NCBI GenBank assembly: GCA_946885335.1
Contig: CAMPGG010000074.1
Location: 1 to 12,623, forward strand
Length of the DNA: 12,623 nucleotides
Direction: 5' to 3'
Source of the DNA: an uncultured Chitinophagaceae bacterium
GTDB taxonomy: Bacteria > Bacteroidota > Bacteroidia > Chitinophagales > Chitinophagaceae
The notes under the pieces were generated by a model. It made no database searches. It worked only from the letters and a program-made list of their open reading frames with translations, and was not told where the DNA came from. The stretch's first letter is position 1, and the number at the start of each line of letters is the position of its first letter. Below, piece by piece: positions 2,906 through 12,623 of this stretch. The position numbers and the translations under genes were made by a program.

Positions 2906-3127
2906 ATGAAACTATTTTTACGCATTCTGACAACCTCTTTTTCTATTGCATTTACAGTTGCACTGTTCTTAAGCATTCTCATTATTGCAGAAATGAAATC
3001 ATGGACATTTTTATGGCTCTATGTACCCCTTTTCCTGGTGGTTTATGAAATGGAAAAAATCAATTTAAAAAAGAAGAAACATACAAGCTCCTTCAAATAC
3101 AGGAAGTATACCAGCTTATATGATTAA
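2906..3127 (+). CDS. Small two-helix membrane protein, hypothetical
   Basis: A 73-residue reading frame of unknown function. Residues about 4-28 (RILTTSFSIAFTVALFLSIL and onward) and about 32-47 (SWTFLWLYVPLFLVVY) are hydrophobic and look like two membrane-spanning helices joined by a short acidic turn (AEMK). The tail is strongly basic (EKINLKKKKHTSSFKYRK), which by the positive-inside rule would place it in the cytoplasm. I recognise no family. Coding status is supported by the hydrophobic-basic layout, an ATG start, and a perfect hairpin 10 nt after the stop. It remains possible that this is a chance frame. An overlapping frame at 2860-3048 has no such organisation. Confidence 0.5.
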   Translation: MKLFLRILTTSFSIAFTVALFLSILIIAEMKSWTFLWLYVPLFLVVYEMEKINLKKKKHTSSFKYRKYTSLYD

Positions 3128-3163: not shown

Positions 3164-3204
3164 TGATTTGCCCGGATAATGCAAAAATATTTTTTGAAGA
3201 AAGC

Positions 3205-3235
3205 TTGCACTATCCCAAACCGATGATTACTTTTA
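3205..3235 (+). promoter_or_regulatory. Candidate promoter of an intergenic small RNA
   Basis: TTG (3205-3207), 20 nt, then TACTTTTA (3228-3235). The -7-like box and the spacing are identical to those at 2677-2707, and both are followed by TG. Predicted transcription start is near 3242. There is no gene downstream on this strand before the terminator at 3424-3460. Confidence 0.3.
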
Positions 3236-3241
3236 TGCTTC

Positions 3242-3460
3242 ACCCCGATCCTTTACTTCAGAACAACCATCCAGCCAATTCCCAGGAATCACTCCAAGTT
3301 CTGCAACACTTTTTTTTATTATAAATGACTGAATAATTGAGCAAATTCATTTGCTAAACTATTTGAGCATACGGAAATATTTTTTTACAAAAGACCTCGA
3401 AGTTTTGCTCAAGGTTTAGTATGAACCTCTCCCCGCCAGTTGTGGCAGAGAGGTTTTTTT
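3242..3460 (+). ncRNA. Candidate small RNA of about 215 nt, unknown family
   Basis: The case rests on a promoter-like pair upstream, a long-range stem and a strong intrinsic terminator, with no accepted gene between them. In the 3' half, CTAAAC (3354-3359) pairs with GTTTAG (3414-3419) and TTGAGCA (3363-3369) with TGCTCAA (3406-3412). These two helices stack with a small internal loop (3 nt against 1 nt) and enclose 36 nt. Just before them GCAAAT-TC-ATTTGC makes a small local hairpin. The terminator begins 4 nt after the stem. I compared it mentally with tmRNA, SRP RNA, RNase P RNA and 6S RNA and see no match. The 5' end is inferred from the promoter only. Confidence 0.35.
3424..3460 (+). terminator. 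Rho-independent terminator with inner hairpin
   Basis: AACCTCTC (3424-3431) pairs with GAGAGGTT (3448-3455). Within it GCCA (3435-3438) pairs with TGGC (3443-3446) around a GTTG loop. A run of seven T's ends at 3460. The orientation is + strand. No gene on this strand ends nearby, which is the main reason to suspect a non-coding transcript. Confidence 0.8.
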
Positions 3461-3471
3461 AATTTAAAAGT

Positions 3472-3559: not shown

Positions 3560-3844
3560 TTACTTATTAAAATAAGACTGTAAATTCTTTACATATACTT
3601 CAAATGCCTGTATACCTGCTGTAGTTATTTTACAATTGGTTTGTGGATAATTGTCTTTGAATTTTTTTTCAATTTCTATATAACCGGCATCTTTTAATTT
3701 TTGTAATTGCACACTCAAATTTCCTGCGGATGCATTTGTTTTTTCACGCAGGTAAGTAAATTCCGCCTGCTTAACACTGATGAGCAATGACATAACGGCA
3801 AGCCTTAACTGAGAATGTAATATGGGATCCAGATCTTTAAACAC
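3560..3844 (-). CDS. Winged-helix transcriptional regulator (HTH_34 / MarR-ArsR-like)
   Basis: The 94-residue single-domain DNA-binding protein has the family layout: LDPILHSQLRLAVMSLL (first helix), FTYLREKTNASAGNLSVQLQKLKDAGYIEIEKKF (helix-turn-helix with recognition helix about 40-53), a wing with NYPQTNCKITTAG, and a C-terminal helix (FEVYVKNLQSYF) suited to dimerisation. Related proteins bind short palindromes as homodimers. I see no ligand domain and no obvious metal-binding cysteine pair. The start is GTG (3842-3844); it overlaps the stop of the preceding membrane-protein gene by 8 nt (GTGTTTAA), so translation is probably coupled. It is the last gene of the six-gene operon. A perfect palindrome in the operon promoter (8343-8357) is a candidate target, which would make this an autoregulator; that link is inference. 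Confidence 0.88.
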   Translation of the reverse strand: MFKDLDPILHSQLRLAVMSLLISVKQAEFTYLREKTNASAGNLSVQLQKLKDAGYIEIEKKFKDNYPQTNCKITTAGIQAFEVYVKNLQSYFNK

Positions 3845-4460
3845 CTTTCTTGATGGCCTCTTTATTTAATTTATTAAATTCAATATTAGCTATATGTCCT
3901 GGTATAATATATCCTGCCATAACTGCGCCGGCATGTAAAATCATGGTCCACATAAAATCTGGTGCAAATAAAGACGCAAATGCAAAAATCCAGGTGATGT
4001 ATGCACCTATAACAGATGGTTTAAAATTTAGGACAGCACCATAAATCAATATCCAGAACCCGTATAACCCTAACAACAACGCAAATCCCTTTGTTGGCGG
4101 CACACCAACATTTATTGAAATAATAATCAGCATAAGGGAAAGAAAAAACCCGGTATTTAATTTATCAAACAAGTCCTGTGTATACGTTTTTACCCGGCTT
4201 GCCTTATTGCCAAATAAATATCTCCCTATCTGAATAAAAAAAAATAATAGGGTAATGATGCCGAACATGTTCCAAAAAAAGAAGGTGCTGGAGTGCCATT
4301 CAAAGCTTATATTAAAAATGGTGAATACGGAGGCGGCAAAAATCAGCCAACCCCAAATGATCCATCCTTTACCATCATCTTTTTGTTCAACTTTTGCCGC
4401 AAAGATCATTTGCTGAATAACTTCCAAACTTTCTCTTTCCGTCATTGGTTTTTGTTCCAT
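3837..4460 (-). CDS. Multi-pass membrane protein, paralogue of its upstream neighbour
   Basis: A 207-residue protein of unknown function. A soluble N-terminal stretch (about 1-30) holds ESLEVIQQMIFAAKVEQ, then about six hydrophobic segments follow (roughly 33-52, 57-82, 104-120, 125-147, 149-166, 168-187), and the C-terminus is basic. Conserved points shared with the upstream gene are SL..IQ.MI..AK near the start, WGW at the first membrane segment, and YIIPGH after the last one. I know of many similar unnamed proteins in Bacteroidota but no assigned activity. ATG at 4460 begins 1 nt after the stop of the upstream paralogue, and its own stop overlaps the regulator start. It has no catalytic motif that I can recognise. 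A role as a membrane partner of the regulator or receptor is possible but unproven. Confidence 0.85.
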   Translation of the reverse strand: MEQKPMTERESLEVIQQMIFAAKVEQKDDGKGWIIWGWLIFAASVFTIFNISFEWHSSTFFFWNMFGIITLLFFFIQIGRYLFGNKASRVKTYTQDLFDKLNTGFFLSLMLIIISINVGVPPTKGFALLLGLYGFWILIYGAVLNFKPSVIGAYITWIFAFASLFAPDFMWTMILHAGAVMAGYIIPGHIANIEFNKLNKEAIKKGV

Positions 4461-4461
4461 A

Positions 4462-5034
4462 TTATTTATTATTATTTCTCAACAAATGGCCTGGAATTAT
4501 ATAACTGGTTAGTATAGCCGCAGCTGCAAATAAAATCTGGTAATCATAACTAAAAAAGGTGCAGGCACAAGCTAGTATCCAGTTAAATATACCACCCAAA
4601 ACCAGCGGCCTGAACTGCAAAATTTTTCCCGAAACAAATGTGCCAAGGCCATACATCAATATCATAAAAGGCCATGCATGCAGCCAGCCAATGGATTTTG
4701 AAATAATAAAAACCAATACAAAAAAGCTGATACCCACTCCCATCCATAAAAAGCCCATGCTATCGCCTACATAAGAACGGTAATGCTCCTTATTCTGATG
4801 TTTCCTGGCATAAAATATAGTAATGAAAACAGCTGGTATAGTAACCAACCAAACCAAATAATGTTGGTTATATTCAATCACTACTTTTAAAAAAAATTGA
4901 ACCAGTATGGCAATGAATGTCATCCAACCCCATAATAAAAAATAGATGCGGTTTTGGTCCAAATCAGATTTTGCTTTTACAATCATGGATTGAATAAGCG
5001 CTAAGCTTTGCTGCGGCGATAAGTTATCTTGCAT
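4462..5034 (-). CDS. Multi-pass membrane protein, first of two tandem paralogues
   Basis: A 190-residue integral membrane protein of unknown function. It starts with a soluble segment holding SLALIQSMIVKAKSD. About six hydrophobic stretches follow (roughly 30-50, 58-75, 92-112, 118-138, 143-160, 163-183), with LLWGW in the first and SYIIPGH after the last. It ends in LLRNNNK. The pattern matches its downstream neighbour along the whole length, so the pair arose by duplication. I chose ATG at 5034. The frame can be extended five codons to a TTG at 5049, but the ATG gives a 19-nt gap to the preceding stop and a sensible start relative to the paralogue. Only 1 nt separates its stop from the next start, so co-transcription and coupling are very likely. 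Confidence 0.84.
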   Translation of the reverse strand: MQDNLSPQQSLALIQSMIVKAKSDLDQNRIYFLLWGWMTFIAILVQFFLKVVIEYNQHYLVWLVTIPAVFITIFYARKHQNKEHYRSYVGDSMGFLWMGVGISFFVLVFIISKSIGWLHAWPFMILMYGLGTFVSGKILQFRPLVLGGIFNWILACACTFFSYDYQILFAAAAILTSYIIPGHLLRNNNK

Positions 5035-5053
5035 ATGTAATTGCTTCAAATAA

Positions 5054-5713
5054 TTATTTATTCACTTGTGCCATAAAATACTGCAAAGTTCCCTTACCCC
5101 AGGCCGGGTCTAAATTGGATGCAGGTTTAAATGCTGCATATTTTTGAGAAGCTGTTTCAAATAATTTTTTTGCTTCTGTTTTACTTCCGCCAAATTGTTC
5201 CGGAGTAAAAAATTTATCCTGCCCTTCCAGCAAATATACTCTTGGGTTTTCAGGATTTAATTGTTTTGCCGTTTCTAATGCTTCCTGTGCCACTGGCCCA
5301 TAAACCATATACCTATTTTGGGGATCCACAATCATCCGCAAACTATTGATCATTTTTTTCACTACATATATCTCCGAATTATTTTTACTCAATGCCTCCG
5401 CCTGCATTAGCAACGCTTCCGCTTTATCAGTTACAGGATCAATTTTTGATGCATCACCACTCATGGGGTTATCCATCATAGTATAACCCATATTTACGGT
5501 AGCCAACGCTGCATAATAATATGGGAGCCATTCTGTTTTTTCAGCAATCGCGATTCTTTCAAAACCGTTTGCTAATTCTTTTAAATTATTTGTATTCCTG
5601 GTTGTATCCATTGCCGCCACTTTGGGCGCCATGGCTTTTACAAATTTTTCATTTTGTGCAAAAGTGAACATCGTACACATACACAAAGACATTCCGGCAA
5701 TTAACTTTTTCAT
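5054..5713 (-). CDS. Exported TPR-like helical-repeat protein, hypothetical
   Basis: A 219-residue protein. The first 20 residues form a signal peptide (MKKLIAGMSLCMCTMFTFAQ); the basic start, hydrophobic core and small residues before FAQ-N suggest cleavage after Gln20 and a periplasmic location. A cysteine pair (Cys12, Cys14) sits within the signal, but there is no well-placed lipobox. The mature part is helical, with tetratricopeptide-like units around ELANGFERIAIAEKTEWLPY, DKAEALLMQAEALSKNN, VAQEALETAKQLNPENPRVY and SKTEAKKLFETASQKYAAF. A distinctive FFTPEQFGGSKTEAKKLF segment lies near residues 166-183. Such repeats usually bind partner proteins. Placement between a 2TM protein and two membrane proteins, downstream of an outer-membrane receptor, suggests an envelope complex, but no partner can be named. 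Confidence 0.82.
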   Translation of the reverse strand: MKKLIAGMSLCMCTMFTFAQNEKFVKAMAPKVAAMDTTRNTNNLKELANGFERIAIAEKTEWLPYYYAALATVNMGYTMMDNPMSGDASKIDPVTDKAEALLMQAEALSKNNSEIYVVKKMINSLRMIVDPQNRYMVYGPVAQEALETAKQLNPENPRVYLLEGQDKFFTPEQFGGSKTEAKKLFETASQKYAAFKPASNLDPAWGKGTLQYFMAQVNK

Positions 5714-5764
5714 ACTTTTTACTTTATTTTTTTATTGAGTAATATGTAATTGGTGATGGTAATT

Positions 5765-6058
5765 TTATTTTGATTCTCGTTCCTTAACTAATTTTTCATA
5801 CTCCCTTTCTATTGCATTGCTTTTAGGCAGAACATATGCATTAATGTAATGAAATGCAACACCAATTCCCCACCCTAACATAGGCCAAACAGGCCATGGA
5901 ATTGAATTAGCATCATATCCGCCTGAAAAATACCAGACTACCCAGAAAAAAACTGACATGATGAGGTAAGTAATTAAATGTCTTTTGAAAGATGCACGCT
6001 GATGTGCTATTTCCCATAATTGAGCATCTTTACCTGCAGGTGCAATAGTGTTTGTCAT
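5765..6058 (-). CDS. 2TM domain-containing membrane protein
   Basis: A 97-residue protein that matches the 2TM domain family as I know it. A soluble N-terminus (about 1-25) is followed by RHLITYLIMSVFFWVVWYF (first helix, about 26-45), then a loop, then PWPVWPMLGWGIGVAFHYIN (second helix, about 54-74). The WPMLGWGIG.AFH signature is characteristic of the family. The charged tail (EREYEKLVKERESK) is probably cytoplasmic. In Bacteroidota the same fold occurs alone or fused to sensor or LytTR-type regulators, and its molecular job is not settled. It begins 9 nt after the receptor stop codon, so the two are certainly co-transcribed; a 51-nt gap follows before the helical-repeat gene. Confidence 0.9.
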   Translation of the reverse strand: MTNTIAPAGKDAQLWEIAHQRASFKRHLITYLIMSVFFWVVWYFSGGYDANSIPWPVWPMLGWGIGVAFHYINAYVLPKSNAIEREYEKLVKERESK

Positions 6059-6067
6059 TTTGTTGAT

Positions 6068-8311
6068 TTATAAATTTGAATTAATGATGTCCTGGGTTCT
6101 ATCCACACCCAGGCTAATGAAAGCGCCCAGAAAAATAAAACGTTTAGAGGGTGGCACGATAGGTTCTTTTCGATGTCCATCATAAGAATATTGATATCCA
6201 AACACCTGGTTACTGCCAAATACATTGGTAATAGAAAATACGAAAACCGTATTCCTTGCTGCACCTTTATCAAAAATATTGGGTAAATAATTGATGCTAA
6301 AACTTAAACTGTTATAGTCAATCGTTTTACCCTGGTCGTAAATGGCAAATTTATCTGCAGCCTGGTCATATCGAATATTATAATAAGGTCGCCCTGTTGA
6401 ATATGTGTAGGAGGCATTGAACATGGATTTGAATTTGCTGACAAATTTTTTGATAACAAGTGAGGCGGTATGATTAGCCGCAAACGGTGGCTGCAATGAA
6501 GAAGGATAATTCAGGAAATTTCTTTTTGTATCTAAATAGGAATAAGAAAACCAATAATCCACTCCTTTGATACTTTTACGATCACGCCAAAAAACCTCAA
6601 TCCCTTTTGCATCACCATTTCCATTATTGCTATTCACTATTTCCCGGTTATTCATCATCGTTGTTTTCAACAAGTCATCATATTTTTTATAGAAAACTTC
6701 GGTTCGGAAAGTCCTGTTATTACCCATCTTTTGATACTGTGCAATGTAATGAGTGGCTTTTGTAAAAGACAGGTCTGAAATTGCCGGTAAATAGCGGCTT
6801 TCGGGACTTTGATAAAAAATGCCATAAGCCAGGGATGCCTGGCCCTGATTGCCTAATTTATAGGCGAGTGAAACTCTTGGGGCCCAATTCATTTTGCTGA
6901 TCAGCGATGAATGTTCAGTTCTTAAACCTAATTTGGCTGCCAGGTTATTGGTTAAATAGATATCCGTTTCTGCAAAAGCGGCTGCCAGGTTTTGTTTTAT
7001 TTCACCGTTAATTTTTTCTCCTGTATACAAAGTATAAACAGGTTTATCATTGCTATAATTATACTCTGTTCCAAAACGCAAAGCACTTAATCCTGCCAGT
7101 TTTTTTTCGAAAACTAATTTTGCATTTGCATACAGGCCCTTGTTATCTAAATAAAAATTTTTTGTCTCAAGATTGTTCAAATAAGCTTTTTGTTCATTTT
7201 CATTTTCTAAAGCCCCGTCAATTTTATCCCTGTTATTGGTAAATGAAAAACCGGCATTCATTTTCCATCCTGCAAAATTTTCTTTGTATGACAGGTTATG
7301 ATAAATATTCAGGTTGGATAATGTAAATACATCTTTATAACCAACAGTATCTATGCTGGGTGTTCTAAATCCCAATTTGTTGGCGCTTAAATAACCATAA
7401 TATTTTACTATCCCCGTGGCTGATGTTTTAATCCTGAAATTGATATCGGCAGTATGGTATTCAGGATCTTTAAAAAATGATTGTTTTTGTTTGATGGCCT
7501 TAAAAGCAAGCCACAAATTGGTATAACCATAATTTATACCCCATGATGATTTTTTATTTTTTGCGAGATGTTGAAATCCGGCGGAAGCGCCCAATACCGA
7601 AATACCCAACGCCCCGGAACTTTGCTCTGGCAAATCAATACTTTCTAAAATAACCGCAGACGAGAGTGCCTGGCCATACAAGGCTGAATATCCACCGGCG
7701 CTGAATACCGTTCCTTTAAATATAAATGGAGAAAATCGCCCACGTTGTGCAACATTTGGCACGCTGCTGTAAAAGAAATTATTGACCAGTGTACCATCAA
7801 TAAAAGTTTTGGTTTCGCCGGCTGTTCCTCCTCTTACAAATAAACCTTCACTTTCACCCACTTGTTGTGCACCGGGCAATGTTTTCAAAGCCCCGGTAAC
7901 ATCAGCATTGGCGCTGGCTGTAGTAGCTATATCGATAGAATTAAGAACGGTTCCCCGTTTGCTGTCGCTTGCTTCAAAACTTCCTGCAGTAATTACAACG
8001 GCCTTTAATTCGGTGATTTCTTCTTTTAAAAGAATCTCTAATTGTATGTTCTCAGTTCCCAGGTTAATTTCCTGGATAAATGGTTTGTAACCGATAGTTG
8101 TAGCCGAAATTTTAAAATTTCCCTTTTCATGGGTAATAAATGAAAACCGGCCCGTAGAATCTGTAGTAGCTCCATCATAAGTATCCACCAAAACAATACT
8201 TACACCAGCTAATCCGGCTTTTTTATCCATCACTTTACCTGATATGGTCAATTGGCCATAAGCCGTTAGCTGATAAGCAGTCAGCAGAAAAATGATTAAT
8301 AAGCGTAGCAT
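6068..8311 (-). CDS. TonB-dependent outer-membrane receptor with N-terminal CarboxypepD_reg-like domain
   Basis: A 747-residue outer-membrane transporter driven by TonB-ExbBD. The signal peptide is residues 1-20 (MLRLLIIFLLTAYQLTAYGQ). A carboxypeptidase-regulatory-like beta-sandwich follows (about 21-95: ISGKVMDKKAGLAGVSIVLV, DSTGRFSF, IGYKPF). The plug covers about 105-225, with LFVRGGTAGETKTFIDG (157-173) and GGYSALYGQALSSAVILES. The rest is a beta barrel with many alternating aromatic strands, ending at RFIFLGAFISLGVD plus a short tail. It is shorter than SusC-type glycan receptors (about 1000 residues), and no SusD partner is next to it, so it is more like a FecA/BtuB-sized receptor. The substrate is unknown. 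I start at ATG 8311: a TTG seven codons upstream (8332) lies inside the predicted -7 box and would not be transcribed. It is first in the six-gene operon. Confidence 0.92.
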   Translation of the reverse strand: MLRLLIIFLLTAYQLTAYGQLTISGKVMDKKAGLAGVSIVLVDTYDGATTDSTGRFSFITHEKGNFKISATTIGYKPFIQEINLGTENIQLEILLKEEITELKAVVITAGSFEASDSKRGTVLNSIDIATTASANADVTGALKTLPGAQQVGESEGLFVRGGTAGETKTFIDGTLVNNFFYSSVPNVAQRGRFSPFIFKGTVFSAGGYSALYGQALSSAVILESIDLPEQSSGALGISVLGASAGFQHLAKNKKSSWGINYGYTNLWLAFKAIKQKQSFFKDPEYHTADINFRIKTSATGIVKYYGYLSANKLGFRTPSIDTVGYKDVFTLSNLNIYHNLSYKENFAGWKMNAGFSFTNNRDKIDGALENENEQKAYLNNLETKNFYLDNKGLYANAKLVFEKKLAGLSALRFGTEYNYSNDKPVYTLYTGEKINGEIKQNLAAAFAETDIYLTNNLAAKLGLRTEHSSLISKMNWAPRVSLAYKLGNQGQASLAYGIFYQSPESRYLPAISDLSFTKATHYIAQYQKMGNNRTFRTEVFYKKYDDLLKTTMMNNREIVNSNNGNGDAKGIEVFWRDRKSIKGVDYWFSYSYLDTKRNFLNYPSSLQPPFAANHTASLVIKKFVSKFKSMFNASYTYSTGRPYYNIRYDQAADKFAIYDQGKTIDYNSLSFSINYLPNIFDKGAARNTVFVFSITNVFGSNQVFGYQYSYDGHRKEPIVPPSKRFIFLGAFISLGVDRTQDIINSNL

Positions 8312-8329
8312 AAAAGCATATTTGGAACA

Positions 8330-8361
8330 CAAACGTAAAGTAGTTTATAATATAAACCAAA
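8330..8361 (-). promoter_or_regulatory. Promoter of the receptor operon (TAnnTTTG type)
   Basis: On the minus strand TTTG (complement of 8358-8361) is followed after 20 nt by TACGTTTG (complement of 8330-8337), a perfect match to the Bacteroidota -7 consensus TAnnTTTG. Transcription would start near 8323, giving a leader of about 12 nt before the ATG at 8311. This is the best promoter match in the window. Confidence 0.65.
8343..8357. promoter_or_regulatory. Perfect 15-bp palindrome in the promoter spacer, candidate operator
   Basis: GTTTATAATATAAAC is a perfect dyad (7 bp, one central base, 7 bp). It lies wholly between the -33 and -7 boxes and abuts the -33 box. A bound dimer there would block RNA polymerase. 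The size suits a winged-helix homodimer such as the one encoded at the end of this operon; the pairing of regulator and site is inference. It is AT-rich, so chance cannot be excluded. Confidence 0.5.
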
Positions 8362-8381
8362 TTAAATTTTATTGTATTTAC

Positions 8382-8413
8382 AAAAAAAACCGGCTCATTG
8401 CTGAACCGGCTTT
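8382..8413 (-). terminator. Rho-independent terminator with GNRA tetraloop
   Basis: On the minus strand AAAGCCGGTTCA (complement of 8402-8413) pairs with TGAGCCGGTTTT (complement of 8386-8397) around the loop GCAA. The stem has 12 pairs including two G-T wobbles, and the T-run extends to 8382. It closes the cadherin-domain gene 21 nt after its stop and insulates the receptor operon promoter. Confidence 0.88.
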
Positions 8414-8434
8414 CATTTCTAAACCCCATTTAAA

Positions 8435-9835
8435 TTAATTTTTCAATATTTTTTGAATAGCTGTTTCATTTCCTGATCCAGCCTTGATAATATAAATACC
8501 ATCTGCCAATTCTGCCATATTCATTTCAATAAACTGCCCTTGTGCTACCTGGCGTAAACTCTTAACTTTTTGTCCTGATTGATTAAACACGTCGATGTTA
8601 ACAGCTTTTGATGCCCAGGCTCCCGGCAATTTAATTTTTGCCGTATGTACTACCGGGTTAGGATAAGTGCTTATTGAAAAATCAGCTATCTCCCCGATTT
8701 GCACGGTACGTACAGTTGAATTGCTCATTTTTCCATTTATATCCACAGCCGTTAATCGATAATAAATTGTTCCATTGAGATGTTTGGTATCCTTATCAAT
8801 ATAACTATATGTCTTTTCTGTAAGTGCTGCAGCAGATCCTAAAACCACTGCCTGTTTACTGTAATCATTACCATCAATGCTGCGCTCAATTTCATAGTGA
8901 CTGAAATTGGTTTCTTCTGCACTATGCCAACTCAACTCAACATCCGGGTTTGTATATTCAGCTTCAAAAGATTGCAACTTAACAGGTAATATAATAGGTG
9001 TCGAAATATTTATAACTACTGTAGCTACATTTGAATTTGCAGCAGGAAAACCATTGTCTGTTAAACGATAAGTAAATGAAGCCGTAGTTCCTGTGAAACC
9101 AGGATTTGGTGTGAATGAAAAACTTCCATCCGGATTAATAACCACCGTACCGTCAGGTGATGGTGTAACAATAGACGGGAACATTGATTCACCATTTGGT
9201 TCATTATCATTGTTCATCAGGTTTCCTACAACCACATCACCCTGCATACTTGAATAATCATCATTCACAGCAACAGGTGCACTGTTACACGTAACACCGG
9301 GACCATAATGCGGATTTGCATTGATAGTCAGGTCATCAAAAATTAAACGACTATTTCCATCACCTGTACTGCCTCCAAGTCGCAATACTAAACGAATCAT
9401 ACCTGTGCTTGCTAAATTGAATGAACTGTCATAACTAATTGGCGTAACAGGTGAATCTTTATCCATATTAATTAAATCCAGTGATGTAAAAACGCCTGTA
9501 CTGTTTACATATCCTACTTCAATAGTTCTTGTGGCATTGCCAGTGATTTTACTGCTTACTTTGTAATTAAAAGAAACATTAAGTGGATTAGTGAATACAT
9601 CTAAAACTGGTGTATAAATATCACGGGTAGCAGCACCCGAAGTAGGCGGGTTGGTATATAAACTGCCGGAACCTGTGATAACGTCTGCTGATGCACTGGT
9701 GTGATAAATTTCTGAAAAATCCCAGCAATTACTTGTCAGGCTTGCTTCATTTCCTTCAAAATATTCAGAATACTGGGCATTTGTTGCACCGGAATAAAAT
9801 ATCACAAATGCAATCAGGGTAAAAATCTTCTTCAT
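8435..9835 (-). CDS. T9SS-sorted secreted protein with a cadherin-like domain
   Basis: A 466-residue exported protein. The signal peptide is MKKIFTLIAFVIFYSGATNA (1-20), cleaved before Gln21. Residues about 22-172 form a beta-sandwich ending in LIFDDLTINA, similar to concanavalin/MAM-like modules before sorting domains. A cadherin-like/Ig-like domain follows (about 186-277: APVAVNDDY, DGSFSFTPNPGFTGTTASFTY). A fibronectin-III-like module (about 283-380) has LSWHSAEETNFSHYEIERSI. A T9SS sorting domain (about 388-466) shows YPNP, VFNQSGQKV, LADGIYIIKA and IQKILKN. It is probably surface-attached or released; the binding partner is unknown. The frame runs open 62 codons upstream to an ATG at 10021, but the ideal signal peptide begins at 9835, so I use that. 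It is transcribed alone, behind a leader of about 250 nt. Confidence 0.9.
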   Translation of the reverse strand: MKKIFTLIAFVIFYSGATNAQYSEYFEGNEASLTSNCWDFSEIYHTSASADVITGSGSLYTNPPTSGAATRDIYTPVLDVFTNPLNVSFNYKVSSKITGNATRTIEVGYVNSTGVFTSLDLINMDKDSPVTPISYDSSFNLASTGMIRLVLRLGGSTGDGNSRLIFDDLTINANPHYGPGVTCNSAPVAVNDDYSSMQGDVVVGNLMNNDNEPNGESMFPSIVTPSPDGTVVINPDGSFSFTPNPGFTGTTASFTYRLTDNGFPAANSNVATVVINISTPIILPVKLQSFEAEYTNPDVELSWHSAEETNFSHYEIERSIDGNDYSKQAVVLGSAAALTEKTYSYIDKDTKHLNGTIYYRLTAVDINGKMSNSTVRTVQIGEIADFSISTYPNPVVHTAKIKLPGAWASKAVNIDVFNQSGQKVKSLRQVAQGQFIEMNMAELADGIYIIKAGSGNETAIQKILKN

Positions 9836-10060
9836 AAGTACGGGTTTAGAATTAATTAATTTTTGGAAGGATACCAGATTGCGGTCTGAAAATAAATTGG
9901 AAAAGAAAACCAATAACCGGGGCTTACCGGAAAACGGGAAAATAAAAGCTCTTTGGTGGAAGAGGCTGGCAGCTAAAATGCCATTTGTTTTACAAGAGAG
10001 AGAAATATAAAATTTTCTCATAGCCGGGATTATTAGTTTTCTTAAGGGTTGGGTTCTTTT

Positions 10061-10086
10061 GATTTGCTTATTTCGATAAGTAAATC
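10061..10086 (-). promoter_or_regulatory. Stem-loop at the predicted transcript start, copy A
   Basis: On the minus strand GATTTACTTAT pairs with ATAAGCAAATC around CGAA; it has ten pairs and one A-C mismatch. Its 5' end coincides with the transcription start expected from the adjacent TATTTTG box. A stem at the very 5' end of an mRNA is a common stabilising device; that role is inferred. Confidence 0.5.
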
Positions 10087-10091
10087 TTGCA

Positions 10092-10121
10092 CAAAATAGA
10101 TAAGGGTTTCTGTATATGCAA
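10092..10121 (-). promoter_or_regulatory. Candidate promoter of the cadherin-domain gene
   Basis: On the minus strand TTG (complement of 10119-10121) and TATTTTG (complement of 10092-10098) are 20 nt apart. The second box is one base short of TAnnTTTG. The same pair and spacing is conserved in copy B, although the spacers differ in several bases, which supports function. Confidence 0.45.
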
Positions 10122-10288
10122 GTGTTTTTACGGAAATCTTTGAAAAAAACATACGGGTTTTTCCCCGAATGTCACAGTATATTTTACAAACCAGTCACTT
10201 ATCTAAGATATTGAATGAAGAAAAAAAGCTAAAATTCTCTCCGAGAAATTTCAAAATTATCCAGATTTGAAGCGTTTTTCAGATAGAA

Positions 10289-10324
10289 AAAGTAAAAACC
10301 CGGCTAATTCCGGGTTTTTACTTT
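10289..10324 (-). terminator. Perfect 15-bp terminator of the lamin-tail gene
   Basis: The arms at 10289-10303 and 10310-10324 are exact complements (AAAGTAAAAACCCGG and CCGGGTTTTTACTTT) around a 6-nt loop. On the minus strand a T-rich stretch follows. The symmetrical A/T flanks could let it work in both directions. It lies 37 nt past the stop of the lamin-tail gene. Confidence 0.88.
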
Positions 10325-10360
10325 CCAAAAAAATGGAAGCTTAAATAAAATTTATTGTCA

Positions 10361-12022
10361 TCAGTTTTTAACGGCTTTTATAATTATTTTGCTACCAGCA
10401 TTACCTATTTCAATATAGTAAAAGCCCTTATGTAAAACTCCGGATTCAGGTAATTCTAATATATTTTCTCCTTTTACTGTTTGAAAATATTTAGCCATTA
10501 ATAATTTACCATTTTGATCCATTACCCTGATTTGAAGTTGGGCACTCATATTATTGTTTAATAATCTTATTCTGAAATAATCCTTAACCGGGTTAGTTAT
10601 CAATGCAGCAACGATTGATTCTTCGTTCCCTTGAAGGTTTATCGTTTTTGAATAAGTTATTTTGCCTGATTTATGAAAAACTTTTAACCTGTAATACAAG
10701 CTTTCATTATTAAATGCGCTTTCACTGTAGTTATAACTTTCAATGCCAGGTCTGTCCGTTCCAATAATCATTGCTCTTTCTTTTACCTGTTGATCATCCA
10801 ATTTCTCCAGGATCACTTTATCTAATAATTCGTTTTCAGCAACAGTCCAATTCAATAAAATTTTCCCATTTTCCTTTTTTCCATTAAAGGAAGCTATAGT
10901 TACCGGTAAAATGATCGGTTCAATATTAGGAATGTGTTTCACCTGGTCAAAACAACCAGCGGCCGTTTTAATTACCATTATTATTTCAGCATCTTTCGGA
11001 GAAAACTTTGAAACATACTGAATGGTGGAAAATGAATTTATTTTTATTGTTTCCAAATGGTTATCGGCAGCATCCAATTCAGTTACTACACTGCCATTAT
11101 CTATATAAAGTTGTATTTCCAGCGGGAATACATTGGTTGAAGCTGAAATCAGACTAAAGGTTAAAGAAGATGTAGTTTCAATTTCGGTACCCCTGATAAT
11201 TGAAGCTGCCATTTGCACTTCAGAAGCGCTATTTCCAGGTTTACCATTTGATCTTGCAGGCGTATGATTTACACCAGCACTGGATTTGGTCCAGCTACCA
11301 CAAGTGCCATCTTTGGTACGGATATACCCATTATCTGAACCTATACTTGCAGTAACAGATTCAAAGGCGGTTTGCTGCATAACATTAAAATTCAAATTGA
11401 ATGTAAATAATGGAAGACTACTTGTTATAACATCTACATTCAGCGAGGGCATGGTGGCAATCATGGCAGGAAAATTTGTACCACTGAAATTTCCAAAGAA
11501 GGAGTTGATTAATACCCCATTTTTGAAAATAAAGAAATTATATGCTGCACCACTACCGGAAAGATTTACAAATACATTGTTTTCTGATAATGATACCGGG
11601 CTTAAATTATAATTCAAATTTCCATCCAGGTTATTATTATCATTTGCAAGAACCCACTTTTTTAAATATCCGAATTTGGCAGCTAACAATGGGTCATTCC
11701 AACTGTAGTTTACATCTGTAGAATTATTTGTTATCTGGTAACTGAATGGCATAGCCGCAGATCCAACAAAAAAACCTTTTGGTGGAATTAACAGATCCGG
11801 AAGATCGAGCACATAGAATCCCCTGGTACTGCCAGATTCAAAATAACTCATAATTGTATAAGCATCTACTGAGGAACTTGCCGAGGAAGTACTTGTATTA
11901 TACAATTCAAAAAATTCATGTCTTCCTGATCCCGGGTCAGGATAAATTTCATTGATGACTACCTGGCAAAAGGTAGCTGTTGACACTATCATTAAGATAG
12001 TTAGGGTAAAGATTTGTTTCAT
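10361..12022 (-). CDS. T9SS-sorted secreted protein with a lamin-tail domain
   Basis: A 553-residue exported protein. The signal peptide is residues 1-19 (MKQIFTLTILMIVSTATFC), with mature Gln20. A lamin-tail (LTD) domain follows: VVINEIYPDPGSGRHEFFELYN (21-42) is the classic opening, and GFFVGS plus the late DGTCGSWTKSSAGVNHTPARSNG (238-260) resemble its end. This suggests one LTD extended by an insertion over about 95-235. Residues about 270-365 form a beta-rich region without a recognised family. A fibronectin-III-like module (about 369-463) and a T9SS sorting domain (about 472-553: ITNPVKDYF, VMDQNGKLL, HKGFYYIEI, IIIKAVKN) finish it. Bacterial LTD proteins are often surface or extracellular and sometimes linked to nucleases, but no nuclease domain is seen here. 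It is probably monocistronic, with a leader of about 330 nt carrying copy B of the shared element. Confidence 0.9.
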   Translation of the reverse strand: MKQIFTLTILMIVSTATFCQVVINEIYPDPGSGRHEFFELYNTSTSSASSSVDAYTIMSYFESGSTRGFYVLDLPDLLIPPKGFFVGSAAMPFSYQITNNSTDVNYSWNDPLLAAKFGYLKKWVLANDNNNLDGNLNYNLSPVSLSENNVFVNLSGSGAAYNFFIFKNGVLINSFFGNFSGTNFPAMIATMPSLNVDVITSSLPLFTFNLNFNVMQQTAFESVTASIGSDNGYIRTKDGTCGSWTKSSAGVNHTPARSNGKPGNSASEVQMAASIIRGTEIETTSSLTFSLISASTNVFPLEIQLYIDNGSVVTELDAADNHLETIKINSFSTIQYVSKFSPKDAEIIMVIKTAAGCFDQVKHIPNIEPIILPVTIASFNGKKENGKILLNWTVAENELLDKVILEKLDDQQVKERAMIIGTDRPGIESYNYSESAFNNESLYYRLKVFHKSGKITYSKTINLQGNEESIVAALITNPVKDYFRIRLLNNNMSAQLQIRVMDQNGKLLMAKYFQTVKGENILELPESGVLHKGFYYIEIGNAGSKIIIKAVKN

Positions 12023-12328
12023 TTCTAAAGGGTTGAATTATTAAATAATATTTAGCCCCATAGAAAATTGGATGTGGCAATTCAGTAGATATAGAATTCC
12101 TGGTGGTTACAAAGCTTGTAAAAGGGTTCTCTTTAAAAAAAATGGTTAGTCATGACCAGTTTTAGAAAAGAAAATTCTTAAAACAATTTGTTCAACAACA
12201 CTTTTTAAAATAAAAATCGGGGGAAAAAGGAAACTGGTGACGGTTATAAGAAGTATGATCAACTTCTTTGGCGCAGACTAGTTTCATAGCCGGGATTTTC
12301 AGTTTTTAAAAGGGTTGGGTATTTTTTT

Positions 12329-12354
12329 GATTTGCTTACTTGTATAAGTAAATC
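12329..12354 (-). promoter_or_regulatory. Stem-loop at the predicted transcript start, copy B
   Basis: This is the same hairpin as in copy A. The closing pair near the loop is T-A in copy A and T-G here, which keeps pairing in minus-strand RNA. On the other strand it would be a C-A mismatch. The A-C mismatch in mid-stem is the same in both copies. Confidence 0.5.
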
Positions 12355-12359
12355 CTGCA

Positions 12360-12389
12360 CAAAATAGATAAGGGGTTTTGCATATGCAA
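12360..12389 (-). promoter_or_regulatory. Candidate promoter of the lamin-tail gene
   Basis: On the minus strand TTG (complement of 12387-12389) and TATTTTG (complement of 12360-12366) are again 20 nt apart. The TTG lies in a perfect 12-bp palindrome TTGCATATGCAA (12378-12389), which copy A has only partly. The predicted start is near 12353. Confidence 0.45.
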
Positions 12390-12525
12390 GTGTTTTTACG
12401 GATATTTTGGTAAAATCCCACGTATTTTTTCTCATCACCTTACGTAAAATATCGCAATAGTTTCTAGGTCAATTATTTAAGTATTTTCCTTACCAATTAA
12501 AAAAATCTATTATTATAAATAAAGA

Positions 12526-12548
12526 AAATCCCCACCAGGCGGGGATTT
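12526..12548 (-). terminator. Hairpin terminator of an upstream minus-strand gene (outside window)
   Basis: AAATCCCC (12526-12533) and GGGGATTT (12541-12548) pair perfectly around 7 nt. On the minus strand it is followed by TTTTCTTTATTT, a good T-tract. It ends transcription that enters the window from the right, ahead of the lamin-tail gene promoter. Confidence 0.65.
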
Positions 12549-12573
12549 GAGCGTTTTAGGTATTTTGTAAATA

Positions 12574-12603
12574 AGAGAGCCCCGGTAAAAACCGGGGCTC
12601 TTT
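12574..12603. terminator. Strong GC-rich hairpin at the right edge
   Basis: AGAGCCCCGGT (12576-12586) and ACCGGGGCTCT (12591-12601) pair perfectly around AAAA, and two more pairs can be added outside. On the + strand the tail is TTTATTGTTT; on the minus strand it is CTTATTTAC. Direction is uncertain. With the hairpin at 12526-12548 it makes a tandem terminator or a bidirectional barrier. Confidence 0.7.
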
Positions 12604-12623
12604 ATTGTTTCATGTTAATCAGA

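Follow-up and report, generated by a model that had tools for sequence, protein, structure and literature searches.

A duplicated, putative promoter–leader module upstream of two type IX secretion cargo genes in an uncultured Chitinophagaceae bacterium

Promoters of the sigma-A type in Bacteroidota combine a TTG element with a −7 box, TAnnTTTG, about 19–21 bp downstream of it, and in other bacteria surface proteins can vary by a cassette-type arrangement, in which constant ends surround a variable middle. The extracytoplasmic function (ECF) sigma factor of promoter type SM6 has a counterpart in Porphyromonas gingivalis, which we take to be SigP. In the available part of a study of Flavobacterium psychrophilum, promoter types are tied to the secretion machinery, chaperones, surface sugars and gliding genes: the primary −7 box is TAnnTTTG, the variant SM5 reads TAnnTTGY, and SM6 carries CGT in the −10 region and has the machinery of the type IX secretion system (T9SS) as its listed T9SS targets (PMC9723704). 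The median 5′ untranslated region in that species is 24 nt, and cis-regulatory RNAs such as Flavo-1 represent conserved 5′ leaders (PMC9723704). Among the titles and abstract openings listed in literature searches on T9SS or Bacteroidota leaders, start sites and recombination, no leader common to T9SS cargo genes is described. Here, we analyse a 12,623-nt stretch of DNA (hereafter called the “window”; contig CAMPGG010000074.1 of assembly GCA_946885335.1) from an uncultured Chitinophagaceae bacterium, in which two T9SS cargo genes, gene 1 and gene 2, are each preceded by one copy, e1 or e2, of a promoter- and leader-like element.

The copies are direct repeats on the minus strand (Table 1), in which 102 of the 116 aligned bases are identical, with 2 gap columns, while their flanks are dissimilar (23/47 aligned bases on the 5′ side and 7/28 on the 3′ side). 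They are the longest pair in the repeat scan of the window (halves of 94 nt and 43 nt), and the other repeat families measure 20–34 nt, among the 20 of 21 families listed. The original prediction had placed near-identical blocks with unrelated flanks, in the same orientation, about 184 and 263 nt upstream of two T9SS genes; the blocks and unlike flanks are indeed present, within 1–2 bases of the predicted positions, and the distances from the 3′ edge of the block to the start codon are about 183 nt for gene 1 and about 262 nt for gene 2, with the correction that genes and blocks lie on the minus strand. The start of gene 1 was taken as the ATG at 9835, which precedes a signal-peptide-like stretch, and that of gene 2 as the ATG at 12022. 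The two proteins are alike at the C-terminus only, as had been proposed, but the common part comprises about 190 residues (27% identity) and exceeds the sorting domain alone. We read the part before the sorting domain in both proteins as FN3-like.

Along the minus strand, each copy shows GTAAAAACACTTGCA and, past a spacer, TATTTTGTG; a hairpin of 26 nt and then a core box, CCCAACCC..AAAAC..AATCCCGGCTATGA, follow. The CTTGCA-N18-TATTTTG portion resembles the −33/−7 promoter of Bacteroidota, and the −7 stretch TATTTTGT, present in e1, e2, and the copy of the closest relative (L001, described below), matches TAnnTTGY of SM5 by letters, with a predicted start site. The related sites found across the family carry TTG at −33 and TAnnTTTG, by construction of the search pattern. 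In contrast, the long conserved leader lies outside the description of this promoter type, as far as the available part of the source extends (PMC9723704). SM6 likewise ties a promoter type to T9SS; however, neither e1 nor e2 has a CGT between its −33 and −7 boxes, and the genes here encode cargo, whereas the T9SS targets listed in the available part of the source belong to the machinery (PMC9723704). Since CTTGCA-N18-TATTTTG is taken as the promoter, the transcripts of gene 1 and gene 2 would begin with leaders of about 250 and 330 nt, respectively.

The closest relative, found via PdxA (87% identity), is a Chitinophagaceae metagenome-assembled genome (G001), whose locus L001 is colinear with the window at 77–80%. 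Positions 9801–10160 of the window, spanning the promoter, the leader, and the beginning of the signal peptide of gene 1, are 87–93% identical to L001 per 60-nt segment, as compared to mostly 50–78% in the body of gene 1, where the last two segments at the 3′ end reach 80% and 88%. The open frame running through the gene 1 leader shows 11 nonsynonymous codon changes and 1 synonymous change between the window and L001, and the differences are spread evenly over the codon positions (5, 6, 6); therefore, the constraint on the leader does not look protein-level. A protein-coding extension from the ATG in e1 was rejected on the 11:1 ratio.

In L001, a single copy replaces the e1–gene 2–e2 arrangement of the window, and gene 2 is absent. 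Window positions 3560–10148 match up to and including this copy, and positions 12284–12623 match from the copy onward. The copy itself is a mosaic, mostly e2-like at its 5′ end, mixed over columns 32–110, and e1-like from column 130, with one exception. Gene 2 may have been lost in L001 by recombination between the copies. Because e1 resembles the L001 copy (identity 0.922) at least as closely as it resembles e2 (0.879), both copies may predate the split from L001; judged on 116 sites, the gain of a second copy in the window lineage would also fit. A BLAST search of G001 with the block returned one full match and one partial match, the latter covering the promoter half and preceding another T9SS gene, and exact GTAAAAACACTTGCA occurs twice in G001, at these two sites only. 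The possibility of a dispersed repeat was rejected, as the full and the half copy both lie upstream of T9SS genes.

How widely is this promoter–leader distributed? A search of 60 family genomes for ACTTGCA-N18-TANNTTTG found 42 sites, as compared to 3 in the reversed control. By our own classification, 4 of these are coding, 5 lack a downstream open reading frame (ORF; none of at least 75 aa within 450 nt), and 33 are noncoding with a downstream ORF; six sites had been flagged under an open frame, of which L182 and L200 (104 and 127 aa) were kept as noncoding and four were taken as coding. The sites precede T9SS cargo genes more often than expected by chance: the sorting domain is over the cut-off at 10 of the 33 noncoding sites with a downstream ORF (binomial p ~1e-11 against an assumed background of 1.3% of genes, orthologous sites not merged; the domain was assigned by coordinates for L184, L196, L200, and L203). 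All 10 belong to the 22 sites with leaders of at least 90 nt, while the 11 leaders shorter than 90 nt precede ribosomal protein and other genes, with the sorting domain in 0 of the 10 tested (L205 was outside the test; Fisher p 0.013, counting 0/11).

When the promoter was combined with a downstream CCGTAC box, 394 family genomes yielded 40 sites and the reversed control none. By our classification, with related genomes unmerged, 29 of the 40 precede T9SS or FN3-like genes: 16 with the sorting domain over the cut-off, 2 just below it (L291 and gene 2 of L009), 9 encoding small FN3-like proteins, a class that rests on one BLASTP comparison (L284) and reading by eye, and 2 cut by contig ends that resemble the gene 1 family (L210, L313). 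Proteins were considered exported when a signal-peptide-like start was recognised by eye. The other 11 sites precede L,D-transpeptidase domain genes (L297, L298) or other genes (L322, L323), lie inside ORFs (L293, L301, L302, L310), have no ORF (L288, L324), or adjoin a contig edge (L308). Thus, in the family genomes searched, the scattered repeat unlinked to gene starts that would have spoken against the original prediction was not found; related promoter–leaders recur mostly before T9SS or similar genes. The small FN3-like proteins (125–162 aa; L284, L285, L287, L294, L295, L299, L300, L306, L202) have the most uniform leaders, TTCGGAAAACCACAT..AAAACTACGATAA..CCGTAC, and no sorting domain or Pfam family was detected in the two that were scanned (L284, L202).

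When the whole block was compared by BLAST with 98 family genomes, 15 sites were found outside G001, all of them weak (E 9e-4 to 0.009); two (L061, L074) span the promoter and 13 match other parts. A first pattern with AACCC in the spacer gave 16 sites, as compared to 5 in the control, and was rejected, as 7 of the 16 are inside or antisense to ORFs; three more (L159, L160, L170) lie over antisense open frames of 80–97 aa, which were not taken as genes.

Next, we searched for leaders closer to that of the window. The pattern CTTGCA..TTTG..CCNTAAGAAAA, written from e1, L183, and L203, occurs at 10 sites in 9 genomes and at none in the control. These comprise L001, the pattern sources L183 and L203, five new sites (two in G546 and one each in G581, G195, and G130), and two sites (L333, L334) without the rest of the leader. 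The seven sites outside L001 that have it align with e1 and L001 from the core box through to the start codon, with the hairpin as a gap, and the core of e1 aligns with CAATCCCTAAGAAAACAA..ATCCG in G013, G020, G546 (two copies), G581, G195, and G130. Against 46 distinct leaders (1000 shuffles), the e1 core gave p 0.001 (the floor) for L183 and p 0.002 for L203; the combined p was 0.0008, or 0.03 without these two. Against 49 control upstream regions, p was 0.96, a value from an earlier run of 49 rows with three sites entered twice, while the other values come from the 46-row run. The window leader is thus clearly a member of the CCTAAGAAAA group, whereas its membership of the wider CCGTAC family is no more than plausible, since the profile of that family scores the window weakly.

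In G546, G130, and G195, the window-type leaders adjoin a gene for a TonB receptor that is 53–58% identical to that of the window over its whole length. On the other side lies atpA in L001, in G546 and, past a 242-aa gene, in G130; the fetched stretch of G195 ends in another T9SS gene, and the window ends short of the atpA position. The cargo of G130, that of G195, and the first cargo of G546 have the sorting domain over the cut-off. Gene 1 matches the proteins of these three loci over the last ~190 aa only, at 35–40%, which exceeds the 27% between gene 1 and gene 2. Sequence comparison reveals a conserved chromosomal locus at which one leader type stands before proteins that differ in their N-terminal parts. 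The two neighbouring cargo genes of G546 are 95% identical over 446 nt at their 5′ ends and 81% identical over 532 columns at their 3′ ends, while their middles do not match. The second of them (L338 9500–11248) is interrupted near its 3′ end, inside the ~81%-identical part, and gave no sorting-domain hit. In L005 and L009, gene 1-like and gene 2-like genes are adjacent, each with its own CCGTAC-type leader, and the pairing of these two cargo types is therefore old; their order along transcription differs from that in the window. Gene 1 type proteins also lie near pdxA in Flavitalea, Puia, and other relatives (L002, L004, L006, L007, L011), among them the cultured Flavitalea sp. BT771 (L007) and Puia dinghuensis (L011), with CTTGCA promoters and leaders that share other boxes, such as TTCCTTCCTTTGAATC.

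We then asked whether the leader is conserved as an RNA structure. In e1, e2, and L001, 29 of 30 cells of the hairpin are paired and no pair is changed on both sides. The hairpin was rejected as the functional core, because it shows no covariation in these three sequences and is a gap in 7 other leaders; it is more likely a lineage-specific insert. Immediately downstream of the CCGTAC box, the sequence shows slightly better folding than its shuffles (mean z −0.75, n=31, t −3.6, with rows that are partly non-independent; 9 of 39 leader rows were dropped and one window stretch was added), and the same test found no folding excess before or after this stretch. In Rfam 15, window positions 8000–12623 gave 23 listed matches (E up to 5), all below the gathering score and none overlapping e1 or e2, and no match reached the gathering score in 7 leader loci, a scan that excluded the window-type leaders L329–L337. 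This agrees with the statement in the original prediction that no known riboswitch or element is recognisable. As compared to RNAs such as Flavo-1, which are likewise conserved Bacteroidota 5′ leaders, the leader described here has no Rfam match at the gathering score in the loci scanned and is conserved mainly as sequence.

Table 1. Features of the two promoter–leader copies and their genes in the window
Feature	Position	Strand	Basis
Repeat copy e1 (promoter and first leader part) of gene 1	10018..10133	-	102/116 vs e2; 107/116 vs single L001 copy
Repeat copy e2 (promoter and first leader part) of gene 2	12284..12401	-	103/118 vs single L001 copy
−33-like CTTGCA of e1	10117..10122	-	sequence; CTTGCA-N18-TANNTTTG recurs in family
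−7-like TATTTTG of e1, one base short of TAnnTTTG	10092..10098	-	sequence; compare TAnnTTTG and SM5 TAnnTTGY in the available part of PMC9723704
−33-like CTTGCA of e2	12385..12390	-	sequence
−7-like TATTTTG of e2	12360..12366	-	sequence
Hairpin GATTT.CTTAT..ATAAG.AAATC, e1 leader	10061..10086	-	gap in 7 aligned leaders of other genomes
Same hairpin in e2	12329..12354	-	sequence
Leader core box of e1, CCCAACCCTTAAGAAAAC..AATCCCGGCTATGA	10018..10053	-	aligns with CAATCCCTAAGAAAACAA..ATCCG in six genomes
Leader core box of e2	12284..12319	-	alignment with e1; not outstanding alone vs leader set (combined p 0.11)
Putative ~250-nt 5′ leader of gene 1 (predicted start site)	9836..10085	-	conservation vs L001
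Putative ~330-nt 5′ leader of gene 2 (predicted start site)	12023..12353	-	promoter and start-codon positions
Gene 1: Big_9/tandem-95 domain, FN3-like module, T9SS type A sorting domain	8435..9835	-	
Gene 2: Lamin Tail Domain (weak match, below cut-off), FN3-like module, T9SS type A sorting domain	10361..12022	-	

The window contains two further elements with such a promoter, both on the plus strand. At 2677–2778, a promoter-like CTTGCA-N18-TACTTTTA is followed by ATTCCGTAC..GTACGGAAT, which by eye forms a stem of 9 bp (8 bp in L001). The element lies ~190 nt before a membrane-type ORF of 73 aa (2906–3127), which L001 also has and for which there is no Pfam match; we read it as a leader of similar design before a non-T9SS gene. 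At 3203–3462, a second CTTGCA-N18-TACTTTTA is followed by ~220 nt without a listed same-strand ORF and by a terminator-like hairpin with a T run. A similar element lies at 5121–5370 of L001, and this may be a small RNA.

The repeat, the conservation of the leader, and the recurrence of related promoter–leaders before T9SS or related genes in the family are established by sequence. We propose, with a probability of about 60%, that the repeat is a duplicated cis-regulatory module, kept and copied while the cargo changes, which probably acts at the RNA level. A housekeeping-type Bacteroidota promoter, together with the beginning of a long 5′ leader rich in C and poor in G, would drive T9SS cargo genes, with transcription starting just downstream of TATTTTG. 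The leader boxes would then be read in trans, most likely at the RNA level, by an RNA-binding protein or a small RNA, which would set translation or stability and thereby place the few module-bearing genes under common control. Through a tandem copy, gene 2, a cargo unrelated to the first, would come under the same control. If the two copies recombined, the cargo between them could be deleted, as the sister genome appears to show.

Several observations weigh against this proposal. The window itself fits the wider family imperfectly: its −7 box is one base short of TAnnTTTG, it contains no CCGTAC, and the core of e2 does not stand out among the 46 leaders (combined p 0.11). The profile R1, built from 28 CCGTAC-family leaders without the window and the gene 1 copy of L001, scores e2 at 12.7 bits (E 0.029), e1 at 10.5 bits (E 0.14), and the L001 copy at 11.9 bits (E 0.052), the last being no better than two other places in L001 (11.0 and 10.2 bits); its training set includes L170 and L200, the loci of hits L127 and L243, so those hits arise by construction. 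The stricter pattern CTTGCATAN{5,8}AACCCN{5,9}ANTTTG recovered the L001 copy only from 396 order-level genomes. In G001, the remaining 22 BLAST matches are short, with E 0.03 or worse, and GTAAAAACACTTGCA with up to 2 mismatches occurs at 23 sites, without clear excess over the 16 of the reversed control. The module precedes 2 of 23 T9SS genes examined in G001 (28 matches, of which 5 without a readable start were dropped; one of the 23 had 100 nt upstream) and, by profile, 1 of 50 T9SS upstream regions examined, out of 60 matches, in G005 (one 5.08-Mb contig). Moreover, sites also precede other genes (a transaldolase-type gene at L206; L322, L323; and L,D-transpeptidase domain genes at L167, L297, L298), and the window-type leader of G581 lies at a different locus. 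Finally, no covarying pair was found in the A3 alignment (28 sequences, 3 of the 31 reference sequences having been left out), and none of the 18 pairs in the A5 alignment is changed on both sides. A regulon of all T9SS genes was rejected, as a loose form of the promoter pattern is present in 7/50 and CCGTAC within 450 nt in 4/50 upstream regions of G005. Accordingly, the original prediction is borne out in part: a search with the module does lead to T9SS and FN3-like genes, although the window itself scores weakly; the module marks only a subset of the surface proteins; and of the two forms suggested for it, promoter or structured leader RNA, it reads as a promoter plus a leader, with no covarying structure in A3 or A5.

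The lack of covarying structure would also suit a DNA-level operator, in which the boxes downstream of the start bind a transcription factor, acting as a repressor or roadblock, and the leader is not read as RNA. One leader subfamily has two similar boxes, AAAACCACAT and AAAACTACGAT, about 20 nt, or two helical turns, apart (by eye). However, the conservation between the window and L001 spans the entire leader to the start codon, more than operators need, and the leaders stay long before different cargo; we consider an operator unlikely. An ordinary strong promoter without special regulation, shared by local duplication and with leaders that resemble each other through the common descent of the cargo, would account for the same promoter pattern at L180 and L193, where short leaders precede ribosomal protein genes, and for the FN3-like C-terminal part common to the compared leader-bearing cargo genes. 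It is nevertheless improbable, as the conservation of the leader extends past the promoter and exceeds that of the coding sequence, and the same leader type precedes proteins with non-matching N-terminal parts. The base composition raises the further idea that Rho loads onto the C-rich, G-poor leader and that premature termination sets the expression. Over 150 nt, more C than G is present in 31 of 31 leader rows (26% C, 15% G), as compared to 62 of 106 control upstream stretches; the rows represent 30 sites (L184 = L296 was entered twice; 8 of 39 rows were dropped) and carry a small bias, as the pattern used to select them ends in CCGTAC. The window leaders contain 20–23% C and 12% G. Since composition alone is weak evidence, and the T9SS upstream regions of G005, nearly all of which lack the module, show the same tendency (39/50), a Rho-type attenuator seems distinctly improbable.

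A leader peptide, translated from the ATG within the block (CGGCTATGA) as a short regulatory ORF, would explain why this ATG is found in e1, e2, L001, and, by eye, 5 of 7 leaders of other genomes. It is absent in G020 and G581, and the codon changes in the leader frame described above speak against it, which makes this explanation very unlikely. The original prediction also considered a mobile module. The gene missing from the sister locus is flanked by direct repeats, as would suit a cassette or a recombination site that inserts genes. However, no recombinase domain, and no integrase such as accompanies integron attC-type sites, was found among the ten window proteins scanned (small ORFs lay outside the scan), the sister genome has no second full copy, and the identities of e1 to e2 and to L001 do not make the copying look recent. 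We give this explanation hardly any credence: nothing points to self-mobility, and the observations fit a conserved locus that has undergone duplication and recombination.

Under the proposed duplicated cis-regulatory module, the changing cargo suggests a further, tentative and on balance doubtful, possibility: Chitinophagaceae may reserve chromosomal slots with fixed ends for surface proteins, with an RNA-regulatory promoter–leader in front and a sorting module behind, in which the passenger is swapped by recombination between tandem copies. As in cassette-type variation, similar 5′ and 3′ parts surround different middles, both within G546 and between genomes. In contrast to it, no recombinase is present in the scanned window proteins, an untranslated leader forms the constant 5′ part, and the exchange is deduced by comparison.

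The choice of T9SS cargo genes for expression is little described in the literature covered here, and a leader shared by a definable subset of the cargo across the family offers a handle for its regulator. The conserved locus, with its changing passengers, provides a natural experiment on the swapping of surface proteins whose expression and export signals are kept. If slots of this kind exist, a protein entering one would at once obtain the same post-transcriptional control and the same routing to the cell surface.

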